NCBI GenBank assembly: GCA_025267735.1
Contig: CM046299.1
Location: 28,931,327-28,995,326 of the forward strand
Origin: Mactra quadrangularis
Taxonomy: Eukaryota > Mollusca > Bivalvia > Venerida > Mactridae
Direction of reading: 5' to 3'
Length of the DNA stretch: 64,000 nt
The notes under the pieces were generated by a model. The model searched no databases, was not told the DNA's origin, and was given only the letters and a program-made list of their open reading frames with translations. Positions within the stretch are counted from its first letter, which is position 1. Every line of letters starts with the position of its first letter. The translations under genes and the position numbers were made by a program. This document shows, one piece after another, positions 7,142-64,000 of this stretch.

Positions 7142-7567
7142 ATAGGCAAATTGTTATTTCGGTTCTTGAATAGAAAAATAAATAATTTTGACTATAAAGT
7201 TACAAAATTAAGGGGGGGGGGTGTTATAACACCTGTGTATGTGTTTGATATTAAATCATAGATGATGTTGCATTAAATATGGTATGAAAACTTGCATACT
7301 CATGTTAGTGTAAAAGTTTATGTATTATTTTCAAGAATATTTCATTCTAGAATACATGCACAAAATTTTAGAAATTTATAACTGTTAAAATTACATGTAT
7401 TCAATATATATACATGTATAACTCCATGGTTAAACTTTGAACACTATTATATTATCGGTCACAAAGCAATGAATAGTGAAGGCACAACAGAAATTTATAT
7501 CATATGTAAGGATACACCATAAAATACACATCATTATTCGGGGACTATGGTTTCATAGAATAACAAC

Positions 7568-7650
7568 AGAATTACACCTGCTTATGAAAGTTTAAGTGCT
7601 CCAGCTCATTCTAGTCGGACATTTACTTTACATACGATCTTGAAAGGTAA
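7568..7650 (+). other. Putative exon remnant with splice donor
   Basis: A frame reading ESLSAPAHSSRTFTLHTIL is followed by AAAG|GTAAGAAA, a strong donor-like site at 7646-7653. The same frame and donor are kept in unit 2 (about 28880-28960) and unit 3 (about 50720-50800). An in-frame stop lies just upstream in all three. I do not recognise the protein. It may be debris of a gene duplicated along with OAS, or chance. Confidence 0.25.
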
Positions 7651-8034
7651 GAAACTTAGTGGATCAACTGGACACAAATGACCTTGAGACCCTAAAGATT
7701 ACTTGTAACAAATAAAGACAATATCAAATTATAAGCTCAGTTTAATAAAGAGACCGTTGTATCACTTGACCATGATCAATGAGATTCAACAGACCTTGTT
7801 CGGACTCCATCCAGATTGTACTGGTTACGGTTACACGAACTTTCAGTTAGCTAGATTAACAGTGACGAGTTCATATAACATTCATACCATATCTTTCCAT
7901 GGGTTTTTACACTCTTGTTCATTTAATGTTTAGCTAATGTGTATTTGTGTTTATACTCGAGACAAGAGCTAGAAACATTGTACTCAACCATTCCCCGGTT
8001 TAGTATTATAATGATTAAGTAAGGATTTTATGAT

Positions 8035-8232
8035 GTGAGAGGCAAGAAAATCGGACAGTCAGACAAGAAACGTCAAGCAGTGGAGCAAAAAGCTAGACAA
8101 CTTAATGATAGCTTGAATATTTTTCAAGTAGAAGTAACAGACTGTAACTTAAATGAAAGAAAAGAATGTAATCTGATATGTTCCATGTTATATTTAACAT
8201 TAGAGTCTAACATACATGTACAACCATTGTAG
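8035..8232 (+). other. Small conserved lysine-rich frame, unit 1
   Basis: This is a 65-codon frame starting VRGKKIGQSDKKRQAVEQKA and ending at a TAG. It is charged and helical-looking, and nearly identical in unit 3 (51186-51383). In unit 2 (29350-29548) the same frame has a stop after QAVE and another near FQV-like residues. An acceptor-like GTGAG precedes the RGKK codons. No family is recognised. The loss in unit 2 argues against strong constraint. Confidence 0.25.
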
Positions 8233-10131
8233 GGTATCTTGGCCCCTAATTTGATGTATAAATTACACATGGATATATTTACATTTTATTAAACTATAAT
8301 ACAGCTACATAAATAGAGAAAACAAACATTTCTTTGTTTTAAAAATGCAATCATAAACATTTATATATAAATATATATATGTAAAAAAACAACAGTGCAA
8401 GAGCATGTACATTTATATTCTGTAGAGGAGATATCTTGAATCTAGTTCAGGGTCGCATTAAAATCAAAATTAGGCCAAGGTCACAATATGATCATAAGTA
8501 AGGTCACAATACATATGATGACATATAGTGAATGATCAATTATCAACCAGCTGAACTAAAATATACTCGAAATTTTATGTTATATTATTTAACAGGCAGT
8601 CAAGGCTTGCAGACATTGACCTTTAATCGAAATTTCCCTTGAAAGAGTTGCCTTTTCTACAATATACTCTAGCAAAAATATGTGCGCAATAATGCACTAA
8701 TGGCATAATTAAATAGCTAGCAGATCCTACATTTTATTCTCTTGAAAACAATATATTTTGTCATGAATCCGGAACATGGTTACAATAATTATTATGATAA
8801 CAAACTGACTGGTTGCTAAGCGACATGATCAATCTCATAGCAACTAAACAGAAACTTATCATTATTTGAACCATTACATCAACTGCTATAATTATCAATA
8901 GTTAAAACATTATTTGTTAATTAAATCAAATATTGAAAAATGATAATGTAACATATGATTGTATTCTTACTCATAAAGGCACAATATTTTATATTTATAA
9001 CATGAAGTACAAAATTAAAAACCTTTTATTGTACAACAAGTTTTGATGAGACTTACTGAAAATGTATCATTAACATTAACAATGCATTAAAATGTCATGG
9101 ACTACACACATCATGCAACTAATGGAACATAACTCTAGTGAAATATATTAGCATAAGCTCCGAACTTATCCGGGCTACTTCATACATTCTGACCAATCTG
9201 TAGGTTTGTCACGATAACCGGTTAATCGACTCTAAAATCAAATTCAGTTCCTGTAATTGATAAATTGTTCTTTTTTATAAGATCACTAAATAAAGAATGA
9301 CTCGACGATTTATAAACATTATATACTTTAATTGCTTGTGTTTTAAATGAGTCTATATATGTGGTGATATATCAGGTTATTTTAGCAGGCATTACATATA
9401 CATTTGGTACATTTATTTCACAGACTTGTTACTAATTTTTTGTCTACAATAAACCTATCCATTTAGAGTACAAGCGACTTCTAGATGAATACAATTCGAT
9501 CAATTTATACAGTAGGAATAAGTTTCAGTTACAAAATTCCTGGTTTTGCATTTTGTTATTATAATTGTGGTTGCAACAGACACACTAATACATTGATTTT
9601 GAAAATATTTCCATAATTTCTTTTCATATTTGTGGTGTTTTCTGACTTGGCCCACGCGGGTCAGGATGTAGCTACAACCGTTTAAAAATACGCAGTATAA
9701 AATTCTTTAGCCACAAATGTATCCAAACCGTCTCAAAATAAAAGTGCCTATATTTCAAGAACACTACTGAATGTGATGCAGTGAGATGAATATAGACCAA
9801 AAAGGGAAAAACGTCAATGAAAATGGCCGAAGAAGCTATTTAACTTAATTTCATGTGAATTGTGGCTTAATAACAATATGAACTAAATAATAATAGTACA
9901 AAAATCGATTAACGCAAATGTCCTAGGTCAAGACGCATAACAAAAACACACCCACAAAAGCTTGGGTAATTGGGTAAGTACCATGACATGCTTTCTAATA
10001 CCAAGGATAACACAAAAAAGAACTAGTCTTTATTTTCATTGTGGCCCTTGGTATTAGTGGCAGGACATAGAGAGGCAAAAACGTTCACAATATCATTTTT
10101 ACATGTTAATAAAATTGAATATCACATGAAG

Positions 10132-10791
10132 TACAGTCAAACCTGTGTATTGTGACCTTCACTCGGAGTTAGCCAAAAAAGTCACATTAGACAGAGGGTC
10201 ACAATATGCAGGGTACAAATACAACTCAAGTTTGGTGTACACTATTTATTTTACAAGCTATTCAGAAGTACAATGTATTCAACACAAAGGTTAATGTTAA
10301 AAATGTTTAAAAACTATAAAATCTATAAAATGTATAAAATCTATAAAATACATGTTGCCCTAAGGAAAAACTGTGTTTATCAAGTTTTTGTGGCACTCAG
10401 GAGGTCCTGCTTGAGAAAAAGTCACTAATTTTTGTCTGTTTGTGTTTCACTAACCACAGTTCTACTAATTTGTCACTCATACTGGCGGCTAAATCCATTA
10501 GTTCAACATTTCCTGTATGTTGGGAATATAATTTAAGTTTGGATGCTAAGTCTATTGCTTCCGATGTTGTTGCAACAGGAATTTGGCTCTCTCCTCTCCC
10601 TTGACACGGTCATAACACACAGAGTCGGATGCATTTTCAGCCTCAATTTCATAGGTCGCTTGTCACATTAGACAGAGGATTGTAATATACAGGTTTAATA
10701 TATAGGAAAATGTCACGGGAGACACCAAATTAGGTCACAATTGACAGATAGTCACATTATACAGAGGGTCGCTAAGGCAGGTTTGACTGTA
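10132..10791 (-). mobile_element. pogo/Tigger-like element relic with TA target site
   Basis: Terminal inverted repeats TACAGTCAAACCTG and CAGGTTTGACTGTA bound a 660-bp insertion in unit 1. The empty site in unit 2 reads GAAGTATCACAAT (about 31433-31445), showing a duplicated TA. The interior encodes a frameshifted transposase C-terminus on the minus strand (separate entry). TIRs of this CAGTCAAACC type are typical of pogo/Tigger elements. Confidence 0.85.
10397..10660 (-). pseudogene. pogo-like transposase C-terminal fragment with PIP box
   Basis: The minus-strand reading gives ATTSEAIDLASKLKLYS, then MDLAASMSDKLVELWLVKHK, then QTKISDFF before a stop at 10397-10399. A frameshift near 10590 separates this from an upstream part (EIEAENASDSV). 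QTKISDFF fits the PCNA-interacting motif QxxIxxFF, which is known at the C-terminus of pogo-family transposases. The DNA-binding and catalytic domains are missing. Nonfunctional. Confidence 0.65.
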
Positions 10792-11059
10792 TCACAATAT
10801 CGTAATATTATACATATTAAACATTAATAAGTTATTTTATTTTAATATCACAAGAATTATCACAGATTTGTTATAACCGAAAGACATAGTATTATCACAT
10901 ATACGTATCACAGAATTAATTTAATTGAAAGACGCTTATTCACATTCTTAATTGGGAAAATGACAAGAAGACGAAAAATCAACCTAAAACATTAAAGCAC
11001 CCTGGCCTAATAAAACAAATAACAAAGCAAATTAGTACATGTATAGATTAAATTAAAAA

Positions 11060-12975
11060 GCCTATGCTGAATAACAATATCTAAAATTGTATACCTTTGA
11101 TAAAAATGATTTTTGATGGCAACCTTAAAAAGTGAATTTCGTCAATGTCTGAGATACTGGTATGTAAACTTTTCCATAGTTTAGCGCCTATAAAACTAAA
11201 ATACTTAGAACCCGAACTTTTGACCCTCGGCAGGCCAAACCCCTCTTTCTGACTGAGCCTAGTGTTATAACAATGAACTCTGTACTGAGAATATATATAA
11301 TGAATCTGATTAATTTGTTCTGTGTAACTTGTAACTTTTCTTTTAAGGACATGGCCAAACCAGTATACCAAACAGAACAAGCGTAGCCAACGTGACATTG
11401 TATTAAAGACATAACAAGTAACATTTTTTGTATGCTGTGTGAGGTTATTATTTTTGCGATAAAGGAACTTTTGCTTTGCATTGGCCTTTTTAATAACTGA
11501 ATCGGCCATACTTTTACAAGACAAGCTTTGGTCTATGGTAACACCAAGATATTTGACAGATGTTGTAGAAGTTATTGATGTATTATTACAAGTTACATTA
11601 AGACTAGACTATGCCTTCAATTTTTATTTAGAACCAAAAACAATAGATTCAGTTTTACCTAAATGTAAAGAGAGTTTATTATCAATTAACCAGTGGCTGA
11701 CATACTATAAATCTACAGACAAGGATTTTTCTACCACTGATATGTTTTACTAGAAACTAATATAGCAGAATCATCAGCATACAATAACAACTTATTTTGT
11801 ATAACTGCTGACATGTCATTGACATATAATAAAAACAATAACGGGCCCAGAATAGATCCTTGAGGTACACCACAAGTTATATAAGCCGATTTAGAGTATG
11901 TACCTAAGACATCTACTTACTGCTGTCTATCAGACAAATATGACCTAAAACACCTTAACACATCTTGTCCAAACCAGATGCCTGAAGTTTCATTAAAAGT
12001 ATAGAATGATCTACAGTATCAAATGCTTTTTGAAGGTCTAATAGAATCATACCTACAACATTGCCTTGATCAATTTTGTTTCTAATAAAATCTGTTAGGT
12101 GAATGAATTAAACAGGTATCAGAAGAAAAGCCATTCCTAAAACCAGACTGAAACTCATACAGTAAATTTTTATTCTTAAAGTATGATTCAACTTGTTCAT
12201 ACACAACCGTTTCAAGAAATTTACATACAATATTTAAAATTGATACTGGTCTGTAGTTTCCAACAGAAAATTTATCTTGTTTTTTATAAAGGGGGACAAC
12301 TCTTGCAGACTTTAAATCTTCAGGCACAACACCCTGTAAGAGTGATAAATTAATTATATGAGTTAAAGGACTAGCAATAATAGGAGATCCATCCTTAACG
12401 AAGCGAGAAGGTATGCCATCTAAGCCAAATTGCTTTATTAATGCCTAGGCAGGCAACGTATTTCAAAACTTTACTCTCCAAAACTAATGAAAAGGAAAAA
12501 CATTGAGAAAAACCAAGTTAGTTTTTTTTTAAAAAGAGTTAACAAAACTATTACCATACCTATGAAGCACAGGAGGTAATTTCTTTACAAAAGTACAAGC
12601 AACTGTTGAATAAAAAATATTTAAAGTTTCAGCTATAAGTGTTTTATCAAAACATATTTTATCATTAATATTTAAACATATATTTCCATTAGAAGAACCT
12701 TTCTTAGATGGAAGACCCAGATTTTTTAAAGTTTTCCATAAGGATTTAGAATCATTTTTACGCTGTTCTATGGAATTTGTAAAATAGTTCATCTTGGCAT
12801 TATGCCCAAGATTTAAAACTTTATTTCTAAAAGCTTTAAAAGTGTTAAAATTTTCTTCTGTTTTATTAATTCTATATTTATGGAAGGAACTATCTCTATC
12901 CTTGATTGCTTGTAAAATATCTGAGTCCATCCAAGGTTCAGTTCTTTGTTTTATTCTCAATTGCATTCAAAACAT
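11060..12975 (-). pseudogene. 5'-truncated Jockey/CR1-like LINE ORF2, unit 1
   Basis: Minus-strand fragments in order: the linker after the endonuclease (12966-12529, EPWMDSDILQAIKDRD), reverse transcriptase (12327-11750, VVPLYKK, NYRPVSIL, QSGFRNG, LLDLQKAFDTVDHSIL, then GVPQGSILGP at about 11850 and an intact YADDSAI at 11761-11781), and the C-terminal part (11524-11081, GAKLWKSLHTSI). Several frameshifts and stops break it, including after CLIH near 12105. The endonuclease is absent. The element is inverted relative to the OAS-like gene. The same insertion is present in all three units, so it predates the duplication. Confidence 0.85.
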
Positions 12976-13885
12976 TTCATTGTCATTTACCTACCAGTTC
13001 AATAGCGGTTTTGACTGCATGCATTTTACACTCAATGTCAGAAAAGTGGACACATTTCACATTTTCAATGTCCCTTGGCCCACATTTTTTTTTAAAAACA
13101 GAAGGTATCTGAGATTTTTTCTCATTAGATGATGTATACAACGTATATGTACCTCCAACAAGAGTTTTGTCCCTAATTTAACATACTTTCTGGTGAAAAC
13201 TTTAATCCAAAAATACAAAAACTGTTGATTTTGCGTTGTCCCTGCATAGGGTACTTGTTTAACTACACTATAATTTTGAAATAATATAGCGTTTTGCTGC
13301 AAATGTTACCTTTACTTGTGACCATTTGGTGTAATTCAATGAAAACATAACCTTCCAAAATCAGACAATAAAATTGGCGAAAATTATAAATTATTTTCCT
13401 GTGTCCCCAAATTGGATGTAAGATACGTTAACAGTTATGGACAACATGCATTAAGTCCAAATATTTGCAATTTCACTCGGATTTATGCCAATATAAACTC
13501 CCAAGTGGTTAATGTAAGTGATAAAAAAGCTTTTGGCGTCTAATATCTAATACAGATTAACCATGTTTTTTAAAAAATTAAAAATTAAAGTGTTACTGTA
13601 AGATTTAATAAGATACGTTAACTTTTCATATGTTACAACACATAGGCTAGTACAGAAAGCAGGCAGAGTTACCTAATTTCACAATGTCTACTCCATGCAG
13701 GCATAATCCAGAGATATTTCATCCTCGAAAAGTGGGATATGCTTACTTTATGGTAAAAAATAGTAAATGTCAATAAGATAACATAAGATACGTTAACACG
13801 TATCTGGTATTTCCATATTTATCGAAAATAAATCATCTTTGGATTTACTTTCTAGCCAATTGCATTGCTAATTACTAAAATTGTG
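12976..13885. other. Unit-1-specific stretch with three identical 14-mers
   Basis: In units 2 and 3 this position holds a different ~150-bp sequence. Here TAAGATACGTTAAC occurs three times exactly (13419-13432, 13609-13622, 13784-13797), all in the same orientation, spaced 190 and 175 bp. No coding frame or terminal repeats are recognised. Confidence 0.5.
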
Positions 13886-15736
13886 TAATGGACCCCCATA
13901 AAAAGATTCAGGGCCGTCCCAGTAGAATTATATAATATTTTTAGAAAATACACTTTACAGTACGTAGTTGAAAACGAAAAAAGTAGTGTGGAAATCTAGT
14001 TTCGATTTGTTTAAGGAAGTCAATCATAATACATACACATGTATTTTGATTTTATATTACTCTAGCGTAAGACGTGTATACTTTCATGCGGATATTTGAT
14101 TAAACAGGTAATAATTAATATTTGTTTGTTTCTAGGCTAAGAACAAAAAATATATTCATTTTCATGAGTGGCCATAAAAATATCCTTAGTTTGTGAATTT
14201 AAATTTCTCAATATTTCTATCATACGTGTTATGTTTCAAATCACTGTTAACAGGCTGAAAGGAAACGCTTTGCATGAAATCTTTAAAAAAAACTAAAAAA
14301 ATGTCCAGGACCGCCTCTATAAAGTTATGAAACATAATTTACGGTGCATGGTTTATAACAAAGGGATGCATTTAAGACATAGTTTCGATTTGCTACAGCA
14401 AGTCGGGTAAAATATATAAATTTTAAACGTTTTGAGCAAAAATTATACTGTTTAAGGACTATGTACTATGTACAGAAAGGTACCTTTAAGTACCGACCCC
14501 CACAAAGTTGGTTAGGGTAAATGCAGTGCTAAAATATCATAATGTATAATCATTCCTCTTGCCTGAAATCTTTTGGACCAGGCAATATTATCGTAGGTAC
14601 TTTCCATCACCTGCGAATACAGAAATAAATACGTTATTTTCTGTGCAAGTTTCCTTTTATTCTAGCGAACAATTTCAGAATACATATACAGATAAGGAAT
14701 GCACTAATATTACTCTAGATGTACTGAGGCTTACATTTTCTATATCTGTGACTGAATTTACATATATGAACAAACAAACAAGTGGGCTCTGTAATCAAAA
14801 CTTGGGCGGCCATTTTGTGTGTATTAAAACTTATTCAATACACATCTTTGTGGAAGTCAGGGGCTAATCATAAAAACGTGTGTTCATTCGCGAACTGAAC
14901 TTCTATCTAAAGATTGCAAGATTTCAATGAAATGTCTTAAGAATGGTTTATTTTTTATAAAGTTATTATTTTATATGTCTGTAGTTTTGATAATTCATTG
15001 TTTTAAGGTATTTATTTGACGCCACGTGGGAACTTTTTTGTGCCTAATTACTTTATTTTGACATCCATCGGTTCCGTCTTAAATTGACCAATGTTTTGTT
15101 AGCAGATGACCATTTAATTGTGTCATACCACCTTTGTTTGCGTTGGCCGTGTACATGTTTGGAAAAACAAGAGTATGGTGGCTCGGTATAGCCCTCGTGC
15201 ATTTTCTTCGAGAGCTTCTTATCTTCGTTGGTGTAATTGTTCTTTGAAGTGTGTGGAACATATTGTATTCTTTAAATGTATTGTAGTTTATAATGTATTG
15301 TTGACGACAAATCATGTGACCAAAATTTGAGGGCTTCACCATTTGTCGTTGACTTAAGTCAGATCGTATTGTAGCAAATATTTTCAAGTTTTGAAAGCGT
15401 CTTTAAAATTCTCTCATCGTAAGCGCAAGATCAACGTAAGTAACTAAGATACGGAAATTTCGCTATCTTACGTAAGAGTCTTATGAAAAGGTCCCAGTTC
15501 TTTATAAGCCCTGCGTTCAGTAAGCATTTAACGTTAGCCAATCACCGTTACCGTTATGAACGGTTAATTAAACGATCCGTTGAAGTTTGTCTTTACTTCA
15601 ATTTATCAGACGAATTTTGAGAGGAGGACTTGTTTGTTGTTTACTTGTTTTTTGTAAATGTATTGATCTAAATCAACGGGAGTAACACCGCCGACTTCGT
15701 TGAATAGACCTAATCCGAAATTCAAATGTATGGGGT

Positions 15737-15830
15737 TTTCCGTCCGTGCACAGGCGGTACAAACAAAGTTTTCTACACATTATTGCTAAACAGCACGAAC
15801 TATGGATTAAATCCTATTTTTTACAGGTGT
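15737..15830 (+). pseudogene. OAS-like exon-1 upstream fragment inside the TTAA element
   Basis: This stretch aligns with about 85% identity by eye to the sequence upstream of the OAS ATG in copies 2 and 3 (about 42978-43065 and 60785-60870). Shared words include GCACAGGCGGTACAAACA, ACACATTATTGCT and TATGGATTAAATCCTAT. Similarity fades before the ATG. It includes the GTCC(A/G)TGCACAGGCGG segment that OAS copy 1 itself lacks. Confidence 0.6.
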
Positions 15831-16732
15831 TTCCATTGTAACAGTGAAAGTTTGTTTTTTATGTACCGGAGGGGAAAACCCAAATATTTTAATTCCGGAT
15901 ATAGTATATTCGCAATGGCAGTAACTAATTTGCAAAATGTTCTGGAACTATTTTGTTTCAGATTGTTTCATGCTCGTGGATTATATACTTAAACCGTTAG
16001 CTGTTGGCCTTAAACGTTTTCCCCTAAGAGGCCGTTCAATGATGACTGTTAGTGAACGTTACGAAACGCCCTACAATGACTAGTTAAAATGTGTAATTTC
16101 ATTTACATGAACTATGTGGTTAGATAAAATTCCCACTATGGTCTAACATCAATATATTTGTAAACCATGAAAATTGGAAACACAATTGAACACCTTTTCT
16201 TGATTACATCACGTTAATCATTTGGCATGCCATTGGATTAGATCTATATAAATTATAAAACAACATTCTGATGTAAAATTGTTAATGAAAATGTTTATTA
16301 ATAACAAAAGTGAGTTATTATCTTACTTTTATATGAAAATAGTGTATGGTAATTATCCGTACAAAGTAATTAGTGATATAATTTATAGATTATGACATCG
16401 TTAAAATATTAAAAATACAGTGTTCAATTAGAGACACATTTTCTGGGGAAAAAAACAGTGAATTAGTGAATTATACCTCATTTAAGTGTGTACCTTACAT
16501 TACCTGTGTCCATTATTGGACACCATACTTATTGTTTGTACTACTTCTTTTGTGTAAAGTTGTATTTTAGACATGTTGGAAATTATGAATTTTAGTTTAC
16601 AGAGATATTTTATCATACTGATTGCAGACAATGTATAAATTAATTTCTATTTTTAACTCTTAGTGCATCTCTACGGGGGTGTACACAATCTAATTGGAAG
16701 ATTTTATTTTAACTGTTTTCCCTGCCCTGCGT

Positions 16733-17030
16733 TCAGTTACCGCGAACGTTACAAAACGTTCCGTAACGATACATTCGGAACTCCCCGGTCATTCGTTGCG
16801 ATTAATCTCGGACATATTTAGACGCTGTTTTGAAACTACCGGTGTTAAAGTAAACAAATATATGATCGTTTGACATTGAGTGATGTTTCGATTTTAGTCC
16901 TTAAATTTTGAAACATCACTCATTGCCTTAACGATCTCATATTTATGTATTAGATTAGGTTATTCGCAGCGAATGGCCGAGGAGTTCCGAATGTATCGTT
17001 ATGTAACGTTCTGTAACGCTTTGTGTAATT
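16733..17030. repeat. Fold-back inside the TTAA element
   Basis: Arms around 16746-16800 (AACGATACATTCGGAACTCC) and 16966-17020 (GGAGTTCCGAATGTATCGTT) are near-perfect complements. A second, inner hairpin lies at about 16861-16945 (GAGTGATGTTTC and its complement). A related left end, CCCTGCGTTCAGTAAGC, occurs separately at 15508. Confidence 0.7.
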
Positions 17031-17653
17031 GAACACGTTACTGTTCTTCATGTAAACTTGTACAAAAGTTTACATTTTTAAACTCACTTTTTTCAAAAAA
17101 ATAAATATCAATAAACCACTTTTTATATATTTTTCTATTGAACTTACTTTTTTGTTTCATTAGGATTGAAATAAAAACTGAAATTTATAAAAATTATTTG
17201 TAAATTTCAATTATTGCAACCACGCCTATTTTAAAGCCATGAAGGACATTCGTAAATTACATAGTCCTTAACAATACGTGGTTTCTGTATTTTGATATCT
17301 ATTTACTTTAGTATAATACGTGTTTACACAGATATTTTAATTACAAGAAATATCTTTAAAAAAGATATTCGGCGCTATGCTGGGTGATTTTGTTTGAAGT
17401 ATAAATGCTGGCCATGTACGACGTAATAACTAGGTCAAAAGTAGTTTTTCTGAAATTGCAATTCAGTCACAACTAACAATTTATGTCCGAATAAATTGCC
17501 ACTCCGCTGAATTTGTCAAATTGGAAAATCCTACCAATTCTAAAGTTAAAAACATCTTTAGTCAATATAATGCCATGGATTTTCAATAAAAAAATGGCCA
17601 AACAATTTATCCTACTTTCTGGAGAACATCAAAAATTTTGATAGAAATATGAA

Positions 17654-17950: not shown

Positions 17951-17978
17951 AATTTAGTAGAAAAATTATGACTAAATT

Positions 17979-51185: not shown

Positions 51186-51383
51186 ATGAGAGGCAAGAAA
51201 ATCGGACAGTCAGACAAGAAACGTCAAGCAGTGGAGCAAAAAGCTAGACAACTTAATGATAACTTGAATATTTTTCAAGTAGAAGTAACAGACTGTAACT
51301 TAAATGAAAGAAAAGAATGTAATCTGATATGTTCCATGTTATATTTAACATTAGAGTCTAACATACATGTACAACCATTGTAG
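51186..51383 (+). other. Small conserved lysine-rich frame, unit 3
   Basis: 65 codons, almost identical to 8035-8232 (one Ser/Asn change), starting MRGKKIGQSDKKRQ. Broken in unit 2. No family is recognised. Confidence 0.25.
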
Positions 51384-54300
51384 GGTATCTTTGCCCCTTA
51401 TTTGATGCATAAATTACACATGGACATATTTAAATTTTATTAAACTATATTCTGTAGAGGAGATATCTTGAATCTAGTTCAGGGTCGCAGTAAAATCAAA
51501 ATTAGGCCAAGGTCACAATATAATCATAAGTAAGGTCACAATACATATGATAATATATAGTGAATGATCAATAATCAACCAGCTGAACTAAAATATACTC
51601 GAAACTTTATGTCATATTATTCAACAGGCAGTCAAGGTTTGCAGACATTGACCTTTAATCGAAATTTCCCTTGAAAGAGGTGTTTTAGCTACAATATACT
51701 CTAGCAACAATATGTGCGCAATAATGCACTAATGGCATAATTAAATAGCTTAGCAGTTCCTACATTTTATTCTTTTGAAAACAATATATTTTGTCATGAA
51801 TCCGGAACATGGTTACCGTAATTATCACGATAACAAAGTGACTGGATGCTAAGCGACATGATCAATCTCATAGCAACTAAACAGAAACTTATCATTATTT
51901 GAACCATTACATCAACTGCTATCATTATCAATAGTTAAAACATTATTTGTTAATTGAATCAAATATTGCAAAATGTTAATGTAACATATGTTTGTATTCT
52001 TACTCATAAAGGCACAATATTTTATATTTATAACATGAAGTACAAAATTAGAAACCTTCTTTTATCGTACAACAAGTTTTGATGAGACTTACTGAAAATG
52101 TAACATTAACAATGCATTAAAATGTCATAGACTACACACATCATGCAACTAAATGAATATAACTCTAGTGAATAATATGAGCATAAGCTCCGAACTTATC
52201 CGGGCTACTTCATACATTCTGACCAATCTGTAGGTTTGTCACGATAACCGGTTAATCGACTCTAAAATCAAATTCAGTTCCTGTAATTGATAAATTGTTC
52301 TTTTTTATAAAATCACTTAATAAAGAATGACTCGACGATTTATAAACTTTATATACTTTAATTGCTTGTGTTTTAAATTAGTCTATATATGGGGTGATAT
52401 ATCAGGTTATTTTAGCAGGCATTACATATACATTTGGTACATTTATTTCACAGTTTTATTCCTAATTTTTGTTTTAAATATACCTACCTATTTAGAGTAC
52501 AAGCGACTTTTAGATGAATACAATTCGATCAATTTATAGAGTAAGTTTCAGTTACAAATGTCCTGGTGTTGCATTTTATTATTATAATTGTGACACACTG
52601 ATACATTTGTACATTGATTTTCAAAATATTTCCGTAATTTCTTTTCATATTTGTGGTGTTTTCTAACTTGGCCCACGCGGGTCAGGATGTAGCTACAACC
52701 GTTTAAAATACGCAGTATAAAATTCTTATGCCACAAATATATCCAAACCGTCCAAAAATAAAAGTGCCTACATTTCAAGAACACTATTAAATGTGATGCA
52801 TGTTAATAAAAATTGAATATCACATAAAGTATCACGGTATCGTTATATCATGCAGATTAATCATTAATAACATCACAAGAATTATCACAGATTTGTAATA
52901 AATGAAATACATAGTATTATCACATATACGTATCACATTATTAATTTAATTGAAGGACGCTTACTCACATTCTTAATTGAGAAGGTGACAAGAAGACGAA
53001 CAATTAACCTAGAACATGAAAGCATCCTGGCATAATAAAACTAATAACAAAGCAAATTAGTACATGTGTAGATCAAATTAAAAAGCCTATGCTGAATAAC
53101 AATATCTAAAATTTTATACCTTTGATAAAATATAAATACAAAAGAGGCAGAACTGCTATAACATTAGTCCATACATGTAGTAAAGTCCCTTCAAATTTAA
53201 GAAGACGTACCATCAATGAATTAGCACATCTATTTTCATTTTGATATCTTAATTGACTTAAAGTATGCACATGTTAACTAGACACTTTATGATTATGTCA
53301 TTGCAACAATTCTTTCATTTTGAGAAAGAAGTCTAGGCTAAAACCAAACTCATGCCGTTTTACGGAACAAAACTCACAGCAAACCAAGGAAATTTATGAT
53401 AGTGATCAAATGATTTGTCTTAGACCACTGTGAGAGAGGCTAGTGACTTTAAATAATATTTTCTCTGTTTTAGTTCATTTTTATCGGAGTTCCACTTGCA
53501 CATTTATGTGTTACGTTCGGGAAGGAAACGGGTTTTTGATAGATCAGATAGGGTACGATTAAACGTTTTTTCCTGTTTAACGTCAGATAACTTTCTTCAT
53601 TTGCTTTTCATTAATAAGCTTTTATATGCAATCGACAAATTAAGCATTTGTTTGATAAATAAGACCAAGTTTTTGAAAATCGACCAAGAAATAAAGCACA
53701 AGAGCCCGTTGAATAAGATCGGTCATTTTTTCTTGGTTTCTGAGTTGACCAATAGCATACCTTTACAATAAATATGTGTGTGTGTATAAAAAAGATTTTT
53801 TTGGGTGGGGGACTGTTTTGTGACGACAGCCTGTGAATTGTATGCGAGAGAACTTATCTTCTTAAATTAATCGTACACCTGCAGTCTGCATCGCGTAATC
53901 TTTGGAACTTTACTATCGAATCTATTATTTTGTTAACTAGTCAATCGCTGTGGTCGTTTACTGCCATTCCATCGATTGGAAAACCATCGATTTTGAAATT
54001 ATTGCATATGTACAGTATTCGATGTCAAATGAACATTTTTGTCTTCAATATCTGAACAGTCGCTCAAACAATGTGAAATTTAATTATGTTTGTCTCTAAC
54101 ACGGCTAGAACTATTTCTTCTTCTTTCTATAACTACTTAACGAAATGGGTTTAAAGAGTGGACGGGCACAGAATAAACGAAAAGTCGTCAAAAGCCTGAT
54201 CGATTAGAGACACGAACATAAAGTCCCTGGTCTGATATAGGCAAATAGCCATATTTTCGTGTGCCCGACGGGCCCAATAGACGTTTGACATTATGTCATT

Positions 54301-54506
54301 TGTGTACATAAGGGTGCATTTGCGCAATGGTGCGATTTAGATTGAACACTGGATTTATACAGTTAAATCTCCGATTCGCCAATGTCTGTTCCATTTCGTC
54401 CATTTGCGCAGAATTCTCCATTGCGTATTTAAGTCATATTCTGTTGTTTTATTGCTGATAATATATTAACGACCAAAAACGTTATTTAACAATTAAAACT
54501 TCATTT

Positions 54507-54687
54507 CGCTACTGACTGCTTTCGTCCATTTTGCCCCTAATTCTCTATTGCGTGTTTTAGTCATACCTGCAGTAAACCGTATCATGTTGCTCTATTCGCT
54601 ACTGACTGCATTTCGTCCATTTTGCCCCTAATTCTCTATTGCGTGTTTTAGTCATACCAGCAGTAAACCGTATCATGTTGCTCTATT
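54507..54687. repeat. 90-bp tandem duplication
   Basis: Units 54507-54596 and 54597-54687 (starting CGCTACTGACTGC) differ at only a few positions. A third, degenerate copy is upstream near 54390-54440 (CCATTGCGTATTTAAGTCAT). Confidence 0.9.
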
Positions 54688-54852
54688 GCCGGATGAAAAA
54701 TCAAATCTATGGAAATAAGTAGCAAGCGATTATCAGCATAATATACTAGCCGAAAACATCCGAATCAAATTTTGCAGTAATGATATGCGGAGTGGATCGG
54801 GGTTTTAGCTTAGATTCAATGCTTGGAGCTGAAATTATGGTTTGTTAACTCT

Positions 54853-54877
54853 GGAACGATGTTCAGAACATCGTTCC
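54853..54877. repeat. Perfect 12-bp-arm palindrome at the insert end
   Basis: GGAACGATGTTC, one spacer base, GAACATCGTTCC. It lies about 11 bp before the LINE sequence resumes, so it may be the terminal hairpin of the inserted element. Confidence 0.8.
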
Positions 54878-54888
54878 AAAAATGATTT

Positions 54889-56800
54889 TTGATGAAAATT
54901 TTAAAAGAGTGAATATTGTCAATGTCTGAGATACTGGTAGGTAAACTGTTCCATAGTTTAGCGCCTATAAAACTAAAGACTTAGAGCCAGAGCCTTTGAC
55001 CCTTGTTAGGCCAAACCCCTCTTTCTGGCTGAGCCTAGTGTTATAACAATGAACAGTGCACTGAGAAATAAGTTTATCATTCACACAGGTGCAAGTTTGT
55101 GTTTAATTTTAAAATTATGACATAAAATAGTTTGATTAACTCTTTCATTTACTGGTAACCAATTAAGGGATTTAAAATAGCTATGATCAACATGAGCTCT
55201 TAGAAGATATTGATGTATTATTACAAGTTACATTAAGACTAGACTATGCCTTCAACTTCTTTTAGAACCAAAGACAATAGATTTAGTTTTACCTAAATGT
55301 AAAGAGAATTTATTATCAATTAACCAGTGGCTAACAGACTGTAAGTCTTCAGACAAAGATTTTTCTACCACTGATATGATTTAACATAAACTATATAATA
55401 CATGTATAGAGCATCAGAATACAATAACAACTTATTTTGTACAACTGCAGACAAGTCATTGACATAGAATAAAAACAATAACGGGCCCAGAATAGATCCT
55501 TGAGGAACATCACAAGTTATATAAGCTGATTTAGAGTATGTACCTAAGACATCTACTTACTGCTGCCTAACAGACAAATATGATCTAAACAACCTTAACA
55601 TAACTTGTCCAAGTATAGATGCCTGAAGTTTCATTAAAAGTATAGAATGATCTACAGTATCAAATGCTTTTGTTTGAAGGTCTAATAGAATCATACCTAC
55701 AACATTGCCTTGATCAATTTTGTTTCTAATAAAATCTGTTAGGTGAAGTAAACAGGTATCAGAAGAAAAGACATTCTTAAAACCAGTATGTAACTCGTAC
55801 AATAATTTTTTATTCTTAAAATATGATTCAACTTGGTCATACACTGCCCTTTCAAGAATTTTAGATACAATATTTAAAATTGATACTGGTCTGTAGTTTC
55901 CAACAGATAATTTACCTTTTTTTAAAAACGGGACAACTCTTATGGACTTTGAATCTTCAAGCATAAAACCCTGTATGAGTGATAAATTAATGATATAAGT
56001 TGAAGGACTAACAATAATAGGACATCCATCCAAAACGAAACGAGAAGGTATGCCATCTGAGACAGTTGCTTTATTAATGCCCAGGCAGTCAATGTATTTC
56101 AAAACTTTACTCTCATAAACTAATGGAAAGGAAACAACATTGAGAAAAACCAAGTTTGTTTTTATGAAAAGAGTTAACAAATTACTTCCCTACCTATGAA
56201 GCCCAGCAGGTAATTTCTTTACAAGAGTACAAACAACTGTTGAATAAAAATTACAAAAAGAATCTGCTATAAGTGTTTCATCAAAACATATTTTATCTTT
56301 AATTTTTAAACATACATTTTCATCAGAAGAACCTTTCTTAAATGGAAGGCCTGGATTTTTTAAAGCTTTTCATAATGATTTAGAATCATTTTTATTCTGT
56401 TCAATAGAATTTGTAAAATAGTTCATCTTGGCAAAATGCCCAAGATTTAAAACTTTATTTCTAAAAGCTTTAAAAGTATTTCAATTTCTTCAGTTTTATT
56501 AATTCTTTATTTATGGAAAAAACTGTCTCTATCCTTGATTGCTTGTAAAGAGTCCATTCAAGGTTTAGTTCTTTGTTTTATTATCAATTGCTTAATTGAT
56601 ACAAAATTGTCAATAACAGATAAAAATAAATTATTAAAACTTTTCCAAGCTTCATTTACATTATCACAAAGTAAACCGGATTCCAATCAATAGATAAAAG
56701 ACTAGCTTGAAAACTCTCTTTGCTATAATTTTTCAAATGTCTTAGCGAAACATTGTTATATGTCTCTCTATCTGTAATAAGAATGAATAAAAACATTTCA
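54889..56800 (-). pseudogene. 5'-truncated LINE ORF2, unit 3
   Basis: It contains the RT region on the minus strand (56180-55557: VVPFLKKGKLSVGNYRPVSI, then LLDLQ..AFDTVDHSILLMKL with a small insertion) and C-terminal debris down to 54889. The YADD site is destroyed near 55400 (reads as TATTCTGATGCTC). GSILGP is recognisable near 55480. The linker (KRDS-like part, EF..QNKNDSKSL) is at 56400-56560. Extra bases and stops are throughout. Confidence 0.82.
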
Positions 56801-57927
56801 TTATCATTTACCTACCATTTCAATTGCGGTTTTAACTGCATGCATTTTAAACATGTTAAAACAGGTAGTCATGTGACGATAAGTTGAGTCATGACGACTT
56901 TAATAGCCAGGTCAGTGGACCTGATACCATGAAATGTTTAAAATACGTGCAAAGTGAAAATATAGATTCGGTCGCCCATATGGAACATATTTGGTAATGG
57001 ACCCCCATAAAAAGATTCAGGGCCGCCCCTGTAGAGTTATATGATATTTTCCGAAAATACAATCTACATTACGTAGTTGACAACAAAAGACGTAGTGCGG
57101 AAAATCTAGTTTCGATTTGTTTAAGCAAGTCAAGCATAATACATATTTTGATTTTATATTACTTTAGCGTAAGACGTGTATACTTTCATGCGGATATTTG
57201 ATTAAAAAGGTAATAATTAATATTTGTTTGTTTCTAGGCTAAGAACAAAAAATATATTTATTTTCATGAGTGGCCATTAAAATATCCTTAGTTTGTGAAT
57301 TTAAATTTCTCAATATTTCTATCTAACGTGTTATGTTTCAAATTACTGTTAACAGTCTGAAAGGAAACGTTTTGCATGAAATCTTTTAAAAAACTTATGT
57401 TATGAAACATGATTTACGGTACATTGTTTATAACAAAGGGTTGCGTTTAAGACCTTGTTTCGATTTGGTACAGCAAGTCGAGTAAAATATATAAATTTTG
57501 AACGTTTGGTGCAAAAAAATTATACTGTTTAACTATATGTGGTTTCTGTATTTTGATATTTAATTACTTTAGTATAATACGTGTTTACACGGATATTTTA
57601 ATTACAAGAAATATCTTTAAAAAAGATATTCGGCGCTATGCTGGGTGATTTTGTTTGAAGTATAAATGCTGGCCATGTACGACGTAATAACTAGGTCAAA
57701 AGTAGTTTTTCTGAAATTGCAATTCAGTCACAACTAACAATTTATGTCCGAATAATTGCCACTTCGCTACATTTGCCAAACTGGTAAATACGACCAATTC
57801 TAAAATTAAAAACATCTTTAATCAATATATTGACATGGATTTTCAGTTAAAATTACTTCTTTTCAGAATGGCCAAACAATTTATCCTACTTTCTGACGAA
57901 CATCAACAATTTTGACAGAAATATGAA

Positions 57928-58113
57928 ATGGCGGCCCACATTGACAAAATGAAAACCCATTTCGAGCGTGCGCTAAATGAGTCATATTTGCTGTTTAGTT
58001 ATACCACCTCGAGCGCTTTTAGGTTTCTACAAATACATTCAGATGACTTGCAATCATTACATTGTAAATTAAATAGACATTTAAAAAAACTCTACCATGT
58101 GGATCTTGCATAA
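57928..58113 (+). other. Conserved small ORF upstream of the promoter, unit 3
   Basis: 61 codons starting MAAHIDKMKTHFERALNESY, identical to unit 2 until the A-run at 58083, then ending KKLYHVDLA. This reading frame keeps the LYHVDLA residues seen in unit 1 after a frame change. Confidence 0.3.
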
Positions 58114-58374
58114 TGCCAAAGACTTTCGATAAATTTGCTTGTTTTAGAATTTGCAGTAAAAAAAACTACGTGACGTCTTATCCATTATTTAGATGACTTT
58201 TGGGATGTAACTAAAGCATCTCGTGAGGAAATATGTATGCCTGCAGACGAGAAAACAGTTGGACAAGGTTCTGTTATCATATTTTTGACCTGAAACTAGA
58301 CTCAGTTAAAATAGAAGTACAGATCCCTAATGTCAAACTTGAAAGTTTAATAGAAAAATCATGACTAAATTGAA

Positions 58375-58467
58375 AAGACAAAACCGCTCTGAAACAGATG
58401 TAATCTTTATAAGGGCTGCTGATCAAAAGTGGCACGTCGTCCGTTTTGTAGAAACCTCTCTAATTCT
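58375..58467 (+). promoter_or_regulatory. Candidate core promoter and first exon, OAS copy 3
   Basis: TATAAG at 58408-58413 and donor TTCT|GTGAGT at 58468, as in units 1 and 2. The distance to the coding exon is about 2.4 kb. Confidence 0.42.
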
Positions 58468-59204
58468 GTGAGTTTCCTATCAAAGAATAAATTTATGTTA
58501 TATGACAGATTTTGATTGTCAAACGAAGACTATCCGCCGCCAGTGCGTGCAAAGAGTTGGTTTTTGACATATATTGTGAGGGACACTGGTGCCATCCTAA
58601 GTGGCTGTACAAATCATATTTTAGCGCTAGAGTTATTCCCAAGTTTTCAGTGATAATGATGATTTGGGGTGACCGAGTTAAGAAGAGGATAAAGTTTTTC
58701 TGAGATAACACATATAATATTACCTTATTGGCTTCACTTTTAGTCAATTCCTACTATTTCTTTACTAAGGGTCAATATAATGAGATGTCTAGAGATTAAT
58801 ACATTACTGCAGGCAACACATATGCCGGGAACGTTTAACAGGTTTTTTTATATTCTTTGTCCCGCTTTTTGATGGTCAAATTTAGAAATTAGCCCGACAT
58901 ACTTACAAACCCTATTAGTAATACCAGCAATTGTTTCGAAGATATTTGACAAGGATCCAATAAAATTCTATTAAATAAAATAGGATTTTTTTGGAATGAA
59001 TCTAGACTATCATATAAGACAATAAGCAACTTTAGTCAGTTATTTCCGCTTGCATACTCTTCAAATAGGTAGGTACAATTAGTTGGATTACTCAGATTTT
59101 ATCCCTATTTTTCAATGTCAATTTGCCAAAATTAATCTTAAATAACTTTTTTGTAAATCATTTTATATGTTTGAAATTCAAGCTAAGTATTTTAGGGTAA
59201 AGAA

Positions 59205-60412
59205 TAGGGATGCGCGATAATACCGGTACACCGGTATATTGCAATACGTTTCAAACACAATACGTACCGGTACGGTCCCGCAATATAACGCGATATTTTT
59301 ATCTTAATCTAAAAGACTAATAGTGCATACTCGAACCTATTTTGCATTATTTGTGGATGCATTTGACTGGAAATTATTTCAATTTTAGGTTTCCTTTAAA
59401 TCCATTTTTAGCATAAAGGTCTAGTTTAAAGTATTGACGTATCTACCTGTTACGACTTTAACAATAAGTAGGGGCAGGGGTGGAACTGATAAATATTTTT
59501 TAATAAATTGGCATTGAGTTAGATACGAAAATAATATGTGTTTTCGTAAAATTTAGTTGGCATAATAAATATTTTATTTCAATCTTAACTTTTTCTTATT
59601 TTGTACGCGACCGCATTTGTGCTCTTATCCTTTGTTGACCGCCTTTTTCCATCTATATCGTCTGCCTAACGCGTCCACCTTTAAGACTTATCTGCGATGT
59701 GCATCTATATACACATGTATTAGAGCTTTACTTTATAATATGACAATAAATGAAAATAGTGGCACTTATAGTCTCTTAAACTAATGCCAGTTATTAGATT
59801 CTAAGAAATTCTTCTGCAACGTGTTTAACACACCCTTTGAAATGTTTAAACTGTTTCAATAAGTTGTATAAGAAATATATCACTGAACAGGAAATTTTGT
59901 TTCCTACATCTTTTGTCCGTATTATTTTATAGATAAATAGCTACAAATCATTCTTGACCCCTATTAAACTAAGTACTAAGCAAAACGTGCACACTTCGCG
60001 GTAAACCTCCGTGCAAACAGTATACTACACTGGATGCTTTACTTATCATTTGGCAAATCAGAGGACGCTCTATGCGGCAATGAGTTAATGCGTGATATGC
60101 AATTCACAATTGGCATGCTGACACTATCAGTCTATCAGCATAGTGTCGCAAAGGAACATTCGATTTAAAGTAAGATTTGTAATAATACTTATTTTACTGG
60201 ACAAAAGTTGAGTCTTAAATGTTTGCAATAGCTTAAATAAAGCTTTCACAATGTATAATTGTGTTGAATCTTCATATTGTCAGTAAAATACAAGCATGGG
60301 TGCTTAAAAAGCTTATGTTCTAAACTTACAATATACCGCAATACGTATTGCAATACGCTGTTTGGTATCGCAATATATCGCAATACGAAATTTCCGGCGA
60401 TACCCATCCCTA
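59205..60412. mobile_element. hAT-type element with 8-bp target duplication, unit 3
   Basis: TAGGGATGCGCGATA at the left and GGCGATACCCATCCCTA at the right, flanked by GTAAAGAA (59197-59204 and 60413-60420), 1208 bp. It has the same site and same ends as 36227-42598 in unit 2, so it was inserted before units 2 and 3 separated. Confidence 0.9.
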
Positions 60413-60897
60413 GTAAAGAACTACGTAAATTTCATCACTGCTGTTAATAGCTTTATTAACAAGAAAGATATTAGATGAAATATTTTGTTATCCTTACATA
60501 GGAATTCAAAGATAAAATCCGAGGATTCCAACTGTAAGGACCTTCTTACCAACTGGATTGCTTCAGATTATATTAGGGAAAGATAACTGACTAAAGTCCC
60601 TAATTACAACAGATATGACATGTACATATAAGTTTTGGCAAATAAATTAAGGGCCATCAAGGTTTTACAGATTAGTTTATCATTTATCATGATGGAGGCA
60701 AAACACTAAATCATACGTCATATTCTATAGATCTCTCCTCAAAGAAATACACTTTATTGTGAATATAAAATGTTTTGGTTTTTTCATCCATGCACAGGCG
60801 GTACAAACAGAGTTTGTTACACATTATTGCTGGAAAGCACGAATATGGATTAAATCCTATAAATTTTGTATTAACAGATAGTACTCAGCATAACAGA

Positions 60898-63800
60898 ATG
60901 GCAACAAGACGGAATCTTCCAGCAGATCTGTATGATGTTGATAGTTCAAACCTTGATAAATTTATAGCAGAACGAATACAACCAGACGACAGTTCACTTA
61001 CACAATGTGGTTTAGTTGTCAATGAAATGGCTGATTATTTAAAAGGTCCAGATTCACCATTCAAACCTAGAGAAATTATCAAGGTAAACCTGCTTTACTT
61101 ATGAAAATAGTTGCATCTTTAAATATACTACGACTATTTCAACGAAGATGAACTAGCAAAAACCTCCATTTTAGTGTAAACAATTCAGTGTTCTAAAAAC
61201 TTACGCTGTGTCTCGTAGTGCACCGTGTAACATTCGGCCATAATCATGGCTGGTCTCATTAATTAATACGTATAGAGTCACTGGTTTCGCAAGGTTTTAC
61301 ATAAGTTGGAAATTGAGCCAATGCAATTACAGTTTGTATTCATGCATTGATTTACTATTTTGAAACATGCAAGTTGGGTTCTACAGTTTGTTCCAGGTGG
61401 AACAACACACGTTTCTATTGGTTAAATATTTATCTCACCTCTGTCATAAATATTCATGCTATTAAGATTTTCTGTCTGAAGTGAAAGTCGCTAGAAAAAC
61501 CATTACCCTATACGTGGTTGCCAGCAAACTTTTGCAGAGATGTCAAAGATAAGCTAAGTTGTTACACCCACTGTGGTGTTGACAAGGCCGTGATGCGTAG
61601 TACAAGTTTCATATTTATTGGTGTTTTAATTTAATTTTATTTCACAAACTGGTGAATTACATTTATAATTTCAAAATCTTGTCTATTTTAAGAGTGGCTC
61701 TCTAGGAAAAGGTACATCAGTGAGAGGTTACGCTGACATTGATCTTATTGTAATGTTAAACGATCACTCAGATGTTGAAACTCACATGAGAAAACTTCCA
61801 GACATTCTGAAACGTCTTGAAGACTTTATAAAAGAGAAAACTAGAGCTCAGCATACAAAAACTACAAGATTTTCAGTACAAGCCAAAATGCTTTGTAATA
61901 GTGACTGGCTTGAGATAGATATTTTACCAGCAGTGGATTTGATAGGAAGAGGTAAGTGACGTAGGGATCATAAGGTACAAGATCAGATTTGTTGCATTCG
62001 TTATATCAGTTTTCTGCTCTGTCTTTACGGGGAATCTGCAAGTATCTGAAAATATCTTTTTGAAACCTGACTAATAAATTGGTATTTTGGATGACAGTAA
62101 ATAAATTTACCAGTTTACAGATAACAATGTGTTTTACACATTTTACCGACTTCTCTTTAGTTAAAAGGTCCCTCAACGAGTTGCATGGTCTGTTTTAGCT
62201 GGATTTCATGGATTTTCCTAAAGCAAATTTGACACAATTTTATGTGCGTCTACCCAAAAAAATATATCTAAAGGAAGGGGTGTGTCCCTCCTAAGCTGTG
62301 GTTTGAAGAGTTTCATATGAAGAAAGCAATCTGGATCACTTGATATAGACAAAACAAAACGGTGATAGAATACTTTTTTGGCTCTGATAAGGTGGAGCAC
62401 AATCAAAACTGATTGAGCAAACATTGCATTTTGTCCCACACCGGAGTTGCCATGGTAACAAGTCATGGTTATTTCTCTCTGTCAATAATCCTGGAATACT
62501 TCTTGCCAATAGTTGCTAGTTCCTCTGTCATCCGAATCTATGTGGCCATTCAAGTGGAAGTATATCTTCCACAGGAAGATGACTTGTGGTATAACAATAA
62601 ACTCACGTTGTTGCTTCTCTGTACTGAACTTTTTACATGTGAATCACTTCTTTTTCCTACTTACAGGGACACCATTGAGAGATATTTACAATCGTATGAA
62701 AACAGCAGATAGTAGTTTGATTCACGAATACTCAGTAACCTTGTCACCACTACAGCTGGAAATAATTAAATATCTTCCTACCAAGGTAAAAAGTTTGATC
62801 CGTCTTGTCAAATATTGGAGAAACAACAAACTAAAAGTAAGTACAAATATAGTTGTTATTTGTATTGACGAACTCATTGATTTACAAAATAACTATGATT
62901 AAAGCTTACTAGATGGGAGCCCGTGCAAGCACGGGCTTTAGGTAATGACAATAAAGGGAAATAATCGCTTCGGGGGGTCTATTTTTAGTTTTATCTAGAA
63001 CTATTTATAGACACAAAAAACCCCACTTTTTTGTTGATTTTGGCAGTTTTTGCAAATATCAAGAGGCTTTGTCAAAAAAGAATTGTCAACTTGATATGCC
63101 TGTAAATAGGTGATCCAGCGACAAACAAAAGATTTATTCAAAGCTGCACAGTTTCTTCCGCAAAACAGGAAACTCGCAAATTTAATAAAATAGATGCTAA
63201 ATACATGTAAGAACAGTCGTTTAGAGCAAAGACATAGATAAAGCCTCCGCTTAGAGTTGGTGAAAAGGTGGTTCTAGTGTCAAGCAGCTTGCTCCTGAAA
63301 GAGAAAGAAATTTTAAACATTTGGAACGAAAACTATACTGTCCACTATACGTAGTTTCTGTGACATTTTTATTTCGTTTGTACCGTGTTAGGTGCGGTTG
63401 CATGTTACAAACTAATTACATAATAAGATTTCAAATGGGCTAACTGATTCAGTCGTTTGCTTCACTTTGATACAGTTACTAAAAATAAAACTACGTCCAG
63501 TTTCAATTGAAAATAAAGCTACAAGATGTTACTTTAAATACACACTTACCCCGACAGCAAACAGGATGTAAATTTAGTAACAGACCTTTTATGATCTTTA
63601 TAAAGACTGGTCAATATTTCTCATGTAGTGTAAGATTGATTTCAACTTAACTTGGCATTTATACAATTTATATAATATATAACAATTTTACAGGGAAGCT
63701 CTGGACCAAGTTTTGCTAGTATCTCTGCGTGGCCAAACTCTTACAGTCTAGAGCTGATCATATTAAACTGCTGGATTCGAGCGGGTGAGCCAGAGAACTT

Positions 63801-64000
63801 TGACATGACAAGAGCATTGCACAGTGTTCTGACGTCATTGATCAATCATAGAACATGGACAATTCATCTGGAGAATTATTGTAAATACGATCCTGGAATG
63901 GCAAGACCTAGGTTTGTTGTTTTGCACTAAATTTGTCTTAATGATAAATATCGCTACTTCCAAGAGAGAGTGAAAAGTAGTAATAATTATTGATACAAAT
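60898..64000 (+). CDS. 2'-5'-oligoadenylate synthetase-like protein, copy 3 (3' end outside window)
   Basis: Exons 60898-61083, 61693-61951, 62667-62836 and 63694-63911 are intact with the same lengths and phases as copies 1 and 2. The last exon should lie beyond 64000. The start is MATRRNLPADLYDV, and an alternative in-frame ATG is at 60790. D77 and D79 (YADIDL) and D138 (LEIDILP) are present, as is PTKVKSLIRLVKYW. It is closest to copy 2 by eye. Intron 3 is lengthened by a 286-bp Helitron (62909-63194). No frame-disrupting change is seen in the visible four fifths of the coding sequence. Confidence 0.92.
62909..63194 (-). mobile_element. Short non-autonomous Helitron in OAS copy 3 intron 3
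   Basis: On the minus strand it begins A^TCTATTTTATTAAATTTGCG (63194) and ends with the hairpin GCCCGTGC..GCACGGGC (62919-62936) followed about 10 nt later by CTAG^T (62909). Copies 1 and 2 have the uninterrupted AAGCTTATGCTAAA site. TC start, terminal hairpin, CTRR end, A/T insertion point and no target duplication are all the Helitron hallmarks. Confidence 0.93.

Follow-up and report, generated by a model that had tools for sequence, protein, structure and literature searches.

The 64,000-nucleotide stretch of the bivalve Mactra quadrangularis analysed here (assembly GCA_025267735.1, contig CM046299.1, forward-strand positions 28,931,327 to 28,995,326; hereafter the window) carries three OAS-like genes in head-to-tail blocks, numbered copies 1 to 3 from left to right. 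Taken as a whole, these genes are very probably best explained as a local tandem expansion of a bivalve OAS-family nucleotidyltransferase gene. A sequence-only reading of the same stretch had proposed such an array, made of intact, antiviral-type genes.

Three OAS-like genes in tandem blocks

A BLAST comparison of the window with itself, in which alignments were counted at E≤1e-20, resolves three head-to-tail blocks with starts near 7141, 28125-28450 and 50013-50333. Positions 7141-10133 align with 28450-31436 at 94.5%, 7184-8298 with 50333-51449 at 96.3%, and 8414-9780 with 51446-52800 at 92.9%. The similarity between blocks is far beyond chance, every alignment falling within the threshold. 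On the plus strand, unit 1 spans 7141..28124, unit 2 spans 28125..50012 and unit 3 spans 50013..64000; these edges are approximate, being taken from the self-alignment, and the right side of unit 3 is cut by the window end. With the unit edges placed by us at 7141, 28125 and 50013, 44-82% of a unit has counterpart sequence in another unit, depending on the pair. Each block contains one plus-strand OAS-like gene.

Copy 1 (18917..22601, plus strand) comprises exons 18917-19102, 19709-19967, 20728-20897, 21492-21709 and 22439-22601 and encodes 331 amino acids, with the stop within exon 5. Copy 2 (43090..46539, plus strand), also of 331 amino acids, comprises exons 43090-43275, 43885-44143, 44859-45028, 45612-45829 and 46377-46539. 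Copy 3 (60898..63911, plus strand) shows exons 1-4 (60898-61083, 61693-61951, 62667-62836 and 63694-63911), which encode 277 amino acids in the window. Gene starts were placed at the Met preceding N-L-P. Exons 1-4 measure 186, 259, 170 and 218 nt in all copies, and both copies 1 and 2 have an exon 5 of 163 nt. The window ends before copy 3 is complete: a GT donor follows its exon 4, and its exon 5 is expected past base 64000. All 11 introns are GT-AG, the intron phases calculated from exon lengths are 0, 1, 0 and 2, and the reading frames contain no internal stop. Vertebrate OAS1 has a similar five-exon layout; a literature search on OAS exon structure returned nothing useful.

The window was translated in six frames and split at stops, and the 2,882 pieces of at least 15 amino acids were searched with an OAS-core profile built from seven relatives. 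At E≤1 the profile matched 14 pieces, which are exactly the exons (5+5+4). As these are its only matches, additional OAS copies within the window were rejected.

The three homologous blocks of the earlier reading are thus borne out by the self-alignment and by the exon count of the core profile. Its five-exon structure with identical lengths and phases holds for exons 1-4 in all copies and for exon 5 in copies 1 and 2, but copy 3 shows four exons. The word intact applies to copies 1 and 2 in their coding frames and splice sites, and to copy 3 in its four exons; it does not extend to promoter, transcription or activity. The unit length of 21-22 kb agrees with the offset between the left parts of the units, about 21.3-21.9 kb, but not with the gene-to-gene spacing, which from exon coordinates is 24.2 kb for copies 1 and 2 and 17.8 kb for copies 2 and 3. 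One cause of this uneven spacing is an insert of about 5.2 kb in unit 2 (37063-42226), which has no counterpart in unit 3. The unit-private parts contain mobile-element sequence, for example this insert and reverse-transcriptase pieces.

The encoded proteins belong to the OAS family

Pfam OAS1_C (PF10421) matches the joined translations of copies 1, 2 and 3 at E values of 8.8e-18, 8.3e-20 and 2.3e-14, scoring 65, 71.6 and 53.8 bits against a cut-off of 19.9 bits. SMODS (PF18144) is also over its cut-off of 26.5 bits in all copies (27.9, 27.4 and 30.1 bits), NTP_transf_2 is over cut-off in copy 1 only, and no Mab-21 family was found among the Pfam matches of the three copies up to E=1. All copies carry the P-loop SGSLGKGT, which fits the G-S-x-G-K-G nucleotidyltransferase core. 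The solved structures that match copy 2 best by sequence are human OAS2 (1.8e-41) and human OAS1 (4ig8, 1.1e-28), and the bacterial CD-NTase CdnC matches more weakly (1.9e-10).

A fold comparison was made with the AlphaFold model of the Mactra antiquata OAS, a 75%-identical relative of the window proteins (mean pLDDT 81.7, from 23 sequences). Porcine and human OAS1 came first (1.6e-19 and 3.8e-19), and the best cGAS match among the 50 listed reached 5e-7. Membership of another nucleotidyltransferase family, whether cGAS, bacterial CD-NTase or CCA enzyme, was rejected as weaker than OAS by sequence, Pfam and fold. A CBASS cyclase assignment was likewise rejected; the prokaryote families of NCBIfam gave 60.4 and 63.6 bits, far under the cut-off of 200. 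The window proteins are thus supported as OAS-family members by their predicted sequences. The OAS-like identity first proposed agrees with the OAS1_C domain in every copy, the solved OAS2 and OAS1 structures matched by copy 2 and the OAS1 fold of the relative; the outcome named as refuting it, a placement elsewhere among the nucleotidyltransferases, did not arise.

A recent, local expansion

The protein search returned 51 matches at E≤0.001. The named ones are OAS-type or hypothetical proteins and come from bivalves, gastropods, the octocoral Dendronephthya and vertebrates. The first match is the OAS of the mactrid bivalve Mactra antiquata (P0001, 473 aa), 75% identical over the whole 331-aa query and the one Mactra protein among the matches. 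A midpoint-rooted tree was built from 47 rows; 7 of 54 rows, all shorter than 290 aa, were dropped, and copy 3 was kept at 277 aa. Copies 1-3 form one clade (100/98) that is sister to the Mactra antiquata protein (100/100), with copy 1 as outgroup to copies 2 and 3 (100/95). This larger group stands next to Mercenaria proteins (99/92), and one Mya protein lies just outside (100/98). The array would therefore have arisen after the split from Mactra antiquata, or have been homogenised since. A recent local expansion of an OAS gene is supported by this topology, in keeping with the lineage-specific expansion that had been suggested. Two OAS matches from Sinanodonta are numbered as consecutive loci (041441 and 041442); OAS genes lying side by side are thus probably not restricted to the genome studied here.

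Indels between the copies were counted inside BLAST-aligned stretches, which for the introns are their homologous parts. For pairs 1-2, 1-3 and 2-3 the exons contain no gap in 984, 826 and 833 aligned bases, and the introns contain 22, 10 and 11 gap openings in 1762, 1295 and 1794 aligned bases (Fisher p=7e-5, 0.009 and 0.02, for pairs that share sequence and are not independent). The ratio of nonsynonymous to synonymous change (dN/dS, NG86) is 0.60, 0.52 and 0.21 in the same order, with bootstrap 95% ranges of 0.36-0.97, 0.31-0.91 and 0.08-0.44 (500 resamples). We read these values as a frame that appears to be under constraint, with amino-acid change fairly free between copy 1 and the others. 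Strong positive selection was rejected, as dN/dS is below 1 and the contrast between exons and introns is not significant.

Several points weigh against an expansion of conserved, working genes. Exon divergence is close to that of the aligned introns (7.9/6.3%, 7.3/7.0% and 3.5/3.9%; p=0.12, 0.80 and 0.66), and constraint is therefore mild where copy 1 is compared with the others. No AATAAA lies within 400 bases of the stop of copy 1 or copy 2, and no promoter or first exon was identified in the window for the copies. Copies 2 and 3 are 96.5% identical in coding bases; the remaining 3.5% is within what heterozygous bivalves might show, and this pair could include an uncollapsed haplotype.

The last point belongs to an explanation in which part of the array consists of uncollapsed haplotypes assembled end to end. 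The insert in unit 2, absent from unit 3, is also of a kind seen between haplotypes. Copy 1, however, differs from copy 2 at 46 of 331 amino acids and from copy 3 at 37 of 277, and copies 2 and 3 are a patchwork, with 9.7-9.8% difference in intron 3 and only 0.8% in intron 1, which looks more like an older duplication with conversion. We consider such an artefact very unlikely; it had been named at the outset as what could overturn the array, and the divergence is the only thing that argues against it here.

Intron 1 (19103-19708, 43276-43884 and 61084-61692) is 95.7% identical between copies 1 and 2, 95.5% between copies 1 and 3 and 99.2% between copies 2 and 3, and is thus conserved as much as the exons or more. 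This may reflect patchy conversion or a hidden functional element.

An altered catalytic residue in copy 1

Asp77 and Asp79 are kept in all three copies. At position 138, copies 2 and 3 have Asp, which completes the triad, as do all 49 homologues with that column, whereas copy 1 has Glu. Sixty-one columns are conserved in at least 80% of homologues, and six of them differ in at least one copy. Of these six, position 138 alone shows no variation among homologues, and no other is changed solely in copy 1. According to an excerpt of one study, human OASL is inactive in part because its third carboxylate (position 152) is Thr (PMC4446440), and an excerpt of another describes mammalian OAS paralogues altered at the Asp sites as non-enzymatic (PMC6307210).

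A loss of activity in copy 1 is nevertheless not certain, in that Glu is still a carboxylate and keeps the charge, and the residues of the polymerase triad are counted as Asp or Glu in an excerpt of the former study (PMC4446440). It is a fair guess that copy 1 would have weakened rather than absent activity, since Glu keeps the charge.

Apparent short OAS cores

The Mactra antiquata protein P0001 carries N-terminal C2H2 fingers, with a match to PF13912 (zf-C2H2_6) over cut-off (1.6e-6) and two fingers by a strict pattern or three by a loose one. Among ten relatives scanned it alone has a Pfam finger match over cut-off, and the others were judged by spacing pattern. At least 95 residues precede the P-loop motif in 25 of the 48 matches with this motif, and 19 of these show the strict and 21 the loose finger pattern. 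The other 23 have fewer than 95 residues before the motif, and none of them has a finger pattern. The 48 rows are not independent; several oyster-type rows are near-identical, a few long rows are two-domain proteins or have unrelated N termini, and some short ones are fragments. The Dendronephthya protein P0040 has a zf-C2H2 match at 0.023, below cut-off, and P0042, its neighbour in the tree, has the strict C2H2 pattern. Because of these two finger-like N termini, the finger-plus-OAS architecture may predate bivalves.

No strict C2H2 pattern occurs in the six frames of the window. In a tblastn search with residues 1-136 of P0001 the best window match was at chance level (E=3.2), whereas the core exons of P0001 were found at E=1e-21 or better. 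A finger profile gave at best E=0.4, on the minus strand, and is a weak profile, since its best window piece (9.0 bits) scores as high as some of the 6 of 6 other finger-type proteins (17.7-6.1 bits). A minus-strand finger remnant at 57884-57994, with its counterparts in units 1 and 2, was rejected as a candidate, having 17 aligned residues, an i-Evalue of 0.34, the wrong strand and no C2H2 spacing. A finger exon could escape these searches if it were divergent or interrupted by an intron, or if, in the case of copy 1, it lay left of the window. Judged by their sequences, the predicted proteins resemble short OAS cores, and they seem to lack the finger module of their closest relative.

This raises the alternative of decaying duplicates, in which the 5' finger exons and promoter were lost and the copies are on the way to becoming pseudogenes. 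Besides the finger exon not found in the window, the closeness of exon and intron divergence, the loss of an otherwise invariant Asp in copy 1 and the mobile-element pieces in the units point in this direction. Against it, the exons seen in copies 1-3 have no stop, frameshift or broken splice site, dN/dS is below 1 in every pair, and short forms are common among the matches, even if some are fragments. Decay is therefore an unlikely account of the array, and we retain the tandem expansion of OAS genes.

Proposed function

The array may have an antiviral role and may sense double-stranded RNA (dsRNA), though activation by dsRNA is uncertain. By family and triad, copies 2 and 3 would join ATP or other nucleoside triphosphates into 2'-5'-linked oligonucleotides, and this synthesis would form part of an innate nucleic-acid defence. 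In copy 1, with Glu at the third metal-binding Asp, catalysis might be weakened or altered, and the protein may be a binding-only or modulatory paralogue; of this we are less sure. An excerpt of a study of an oyster mortality syndrome reports an OAS transcript as under-represented in two resistant families, RF23 and RF48 (PMC6971885). A link to immunity is plausible, and its sign would not be simple.

The copies could also be OAS enzymes that are dsRNA-independent or non-antiviral, making 2'-5' oligonucleotides constitutively in a regulatory rather than virus-sensing role. We hold this to be a real possibility, if on balance a doubtful one. The window copies have Leu66 in the P-loop (GSLGKG) where mammalian OAS1 has Ser (GSSGKG). 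Leu is found at this position in 49 of the 51 rows with the motif, the copies included, Met in one, and Ser only in the rodent OAS1 P0048. The OASL study connects a bulky residue at this site with an aN4 helix that is intrinsically preformed, as it is in constitutively active enzymes (PMC4446440). The hydrophobic residue would thus be a reason to doubt strict dsRNA dependence of the window proteins. The model of the relative has a short helix at this place (207-210), though predicted models often show one bound-like state. Excerpts of a further study conclude that ancient OAS acted independently of dsRNA and report no RNase L in the OAS-bearing oyster and limpet (PMC6307210).

Two observations speak against this alternative. 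Leu is also present in two vertebrate OAS1-like matches, P0044 and P0046, and the residue alone is thus not decisive. Lysines aligned with nucleic-acid contacts are partly kept: Lys62 and Lys183 of the copies align with Lys66 of human OASL and Lys199 of OAS1, respectively, and Leu179 aligns with Arg195 of OAS1. Arg195 and Lys199 of OAS1 presumably contact nucleic acid. A charge swap at Lys66 of OASL weakens dsRNA binding, as stated in an excerpt of PMC4446440.

A more elaborate history can be drawn for the expanded OAS genes, which we regard as improbable though conceivable. An OAS gene would have shed its finger module and then multiplied, and one copy would independently have changed the carboxylate lost in OASL. 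Active enzymes would then stand beside an altered partner, as a convergent OASL-like array without interferon or RNase L.

Other features of the window

An in-frame stretch upstream of the Met of copy 1 (18830..18916, plus strand) lies behind an AG acceptor-like site and may be 5' untranslated region or extra coding sequence. A 94-base look-alike at 15724-15817 is 85-89% like the stretch just upstream of the OAS start codons and may be either a dispersed repeat or what remains of the 5' end of an OAS gene. A further dispersed repeat occurs at 20192-20480, inside intron 2 of copy 1, and at 48574-48861 (80.6% alike); the alignments of copy 1 with copies 2 and 3 are interrupted around it.

The insert in unit 2 has inverted arms of about 0.9 kb (37064-38013 and 41340-42225, 86.8% alike), and the empty site in unit 3 is at about 60039/60040. 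It resembles a DNA transposon or a fold-back element, with no target duplication resolved. Minus-strand reverse-transcriptase pieces (PF00078) at 12082-12444 in unit 1, below cut-off, and at 55557-56189 in unit 3, above cut-off, are probably remains of long interspersed nuclear elements. A tRNA-like match at 23145-23217 (Rfam RF00005, 30.4 bits, just over cut-off), not called by ARAGORN, is probably a tRNA-derived short interspersed nuclear element; the ARAGORN scan and the Rfam search of the window yielded nothing informative beyond it. Two tandem repeats were noted, a run of about 22 copies of the five bases GCACG at 41158-41266 and a 91-base unit in two tandem copies (97%) at 54505-54687. 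Left of the array, a minus-strand open reading frame at 2634-2963 has a weak DUF6589 match (8e-4), below cut-off.

Comparison with known systems

According to an excerpt of PMC6307210, oyster, limpet and other invertebrates have OAS, and an Aplysia study reports, in the excerpt available, that no OAS was found (PMC9334734). More than 200 cGAS-like receptor (cGLR) proteins are reported for some bivalve genomes in an excerpt of PMC9980059. Because OAS in molluscs and large sets of related receptors in bivalves are already known, the surprise is limited, and the array adds to a known kind of system. Less expected are two modest variations, the apparent loss of the fingers and the change at the catalytic site. 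Among the matches listed by a loose literature search, none deals with an OAS array, and no paper about zinc-finger OAS in molluscs was found by title or abstract start, a search that was not exhaustive. Excerpts of PMC6353905, PMC6723221, PMC10611208, PMC2852836, PMC5869526, PMC13385679 and PMC13129866 contributed nothing decisive.

OAS enzymes occur in animals reported to be without interferon and RNase L. With two copies that have the triad and one variant at the catalytic site, all of recent origin and in a single genome, the array lends itself naturally to comparison. The combination of C2H2 fingers and OAS among bivalve matches, with finger-like N termini in two octocoral-clade rows, offers a lead on early nucleic-acid recognition by OAS.

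The Mactra antiquata OAS shares with the window proteins the OAS core, the P-loop SGSLGKGT and the triad of copies 2 and 3, but is longer at the N terminus by about 140 residues, which include C2H2 fingers. The OAS1-like, OAS1A-like and OAS2-like proteins of Mercenaria mercenaria (P0002, P0004 and P0006) have OAS1_C and are 48-51% identical to copy 2, but all three show an N-terminal C2H2-like pattern, with no Pfam finger over cut-off, and stand outside the clade of the window. Human OAS1 belongs to the same family by its sequence match to copy 2, and the model of the relative shares its fold. It is 27% identical to that relative in the fold match and has Ser in the P-loop where the window proteins have Leu, and dsRNA is an established activator of OAS1 but not of the window proteins. 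Human OASL resembles copy 1 in being an OAS paralogue in which the third catalytic carboxylate has changed; it differs in having Thr instead of Glu and two ubiquitin-like domains, described in an excerpt of PMC4446440, that copy 1 is without. The cGLRs of animals are members of the same nucleotidyltransferase superfamily with expansions in bivalves, as an excerpt of PMC9980059 describes, whereas the window genes are nearer to OAS than to cGAS by sequence, as is their relative by fold.

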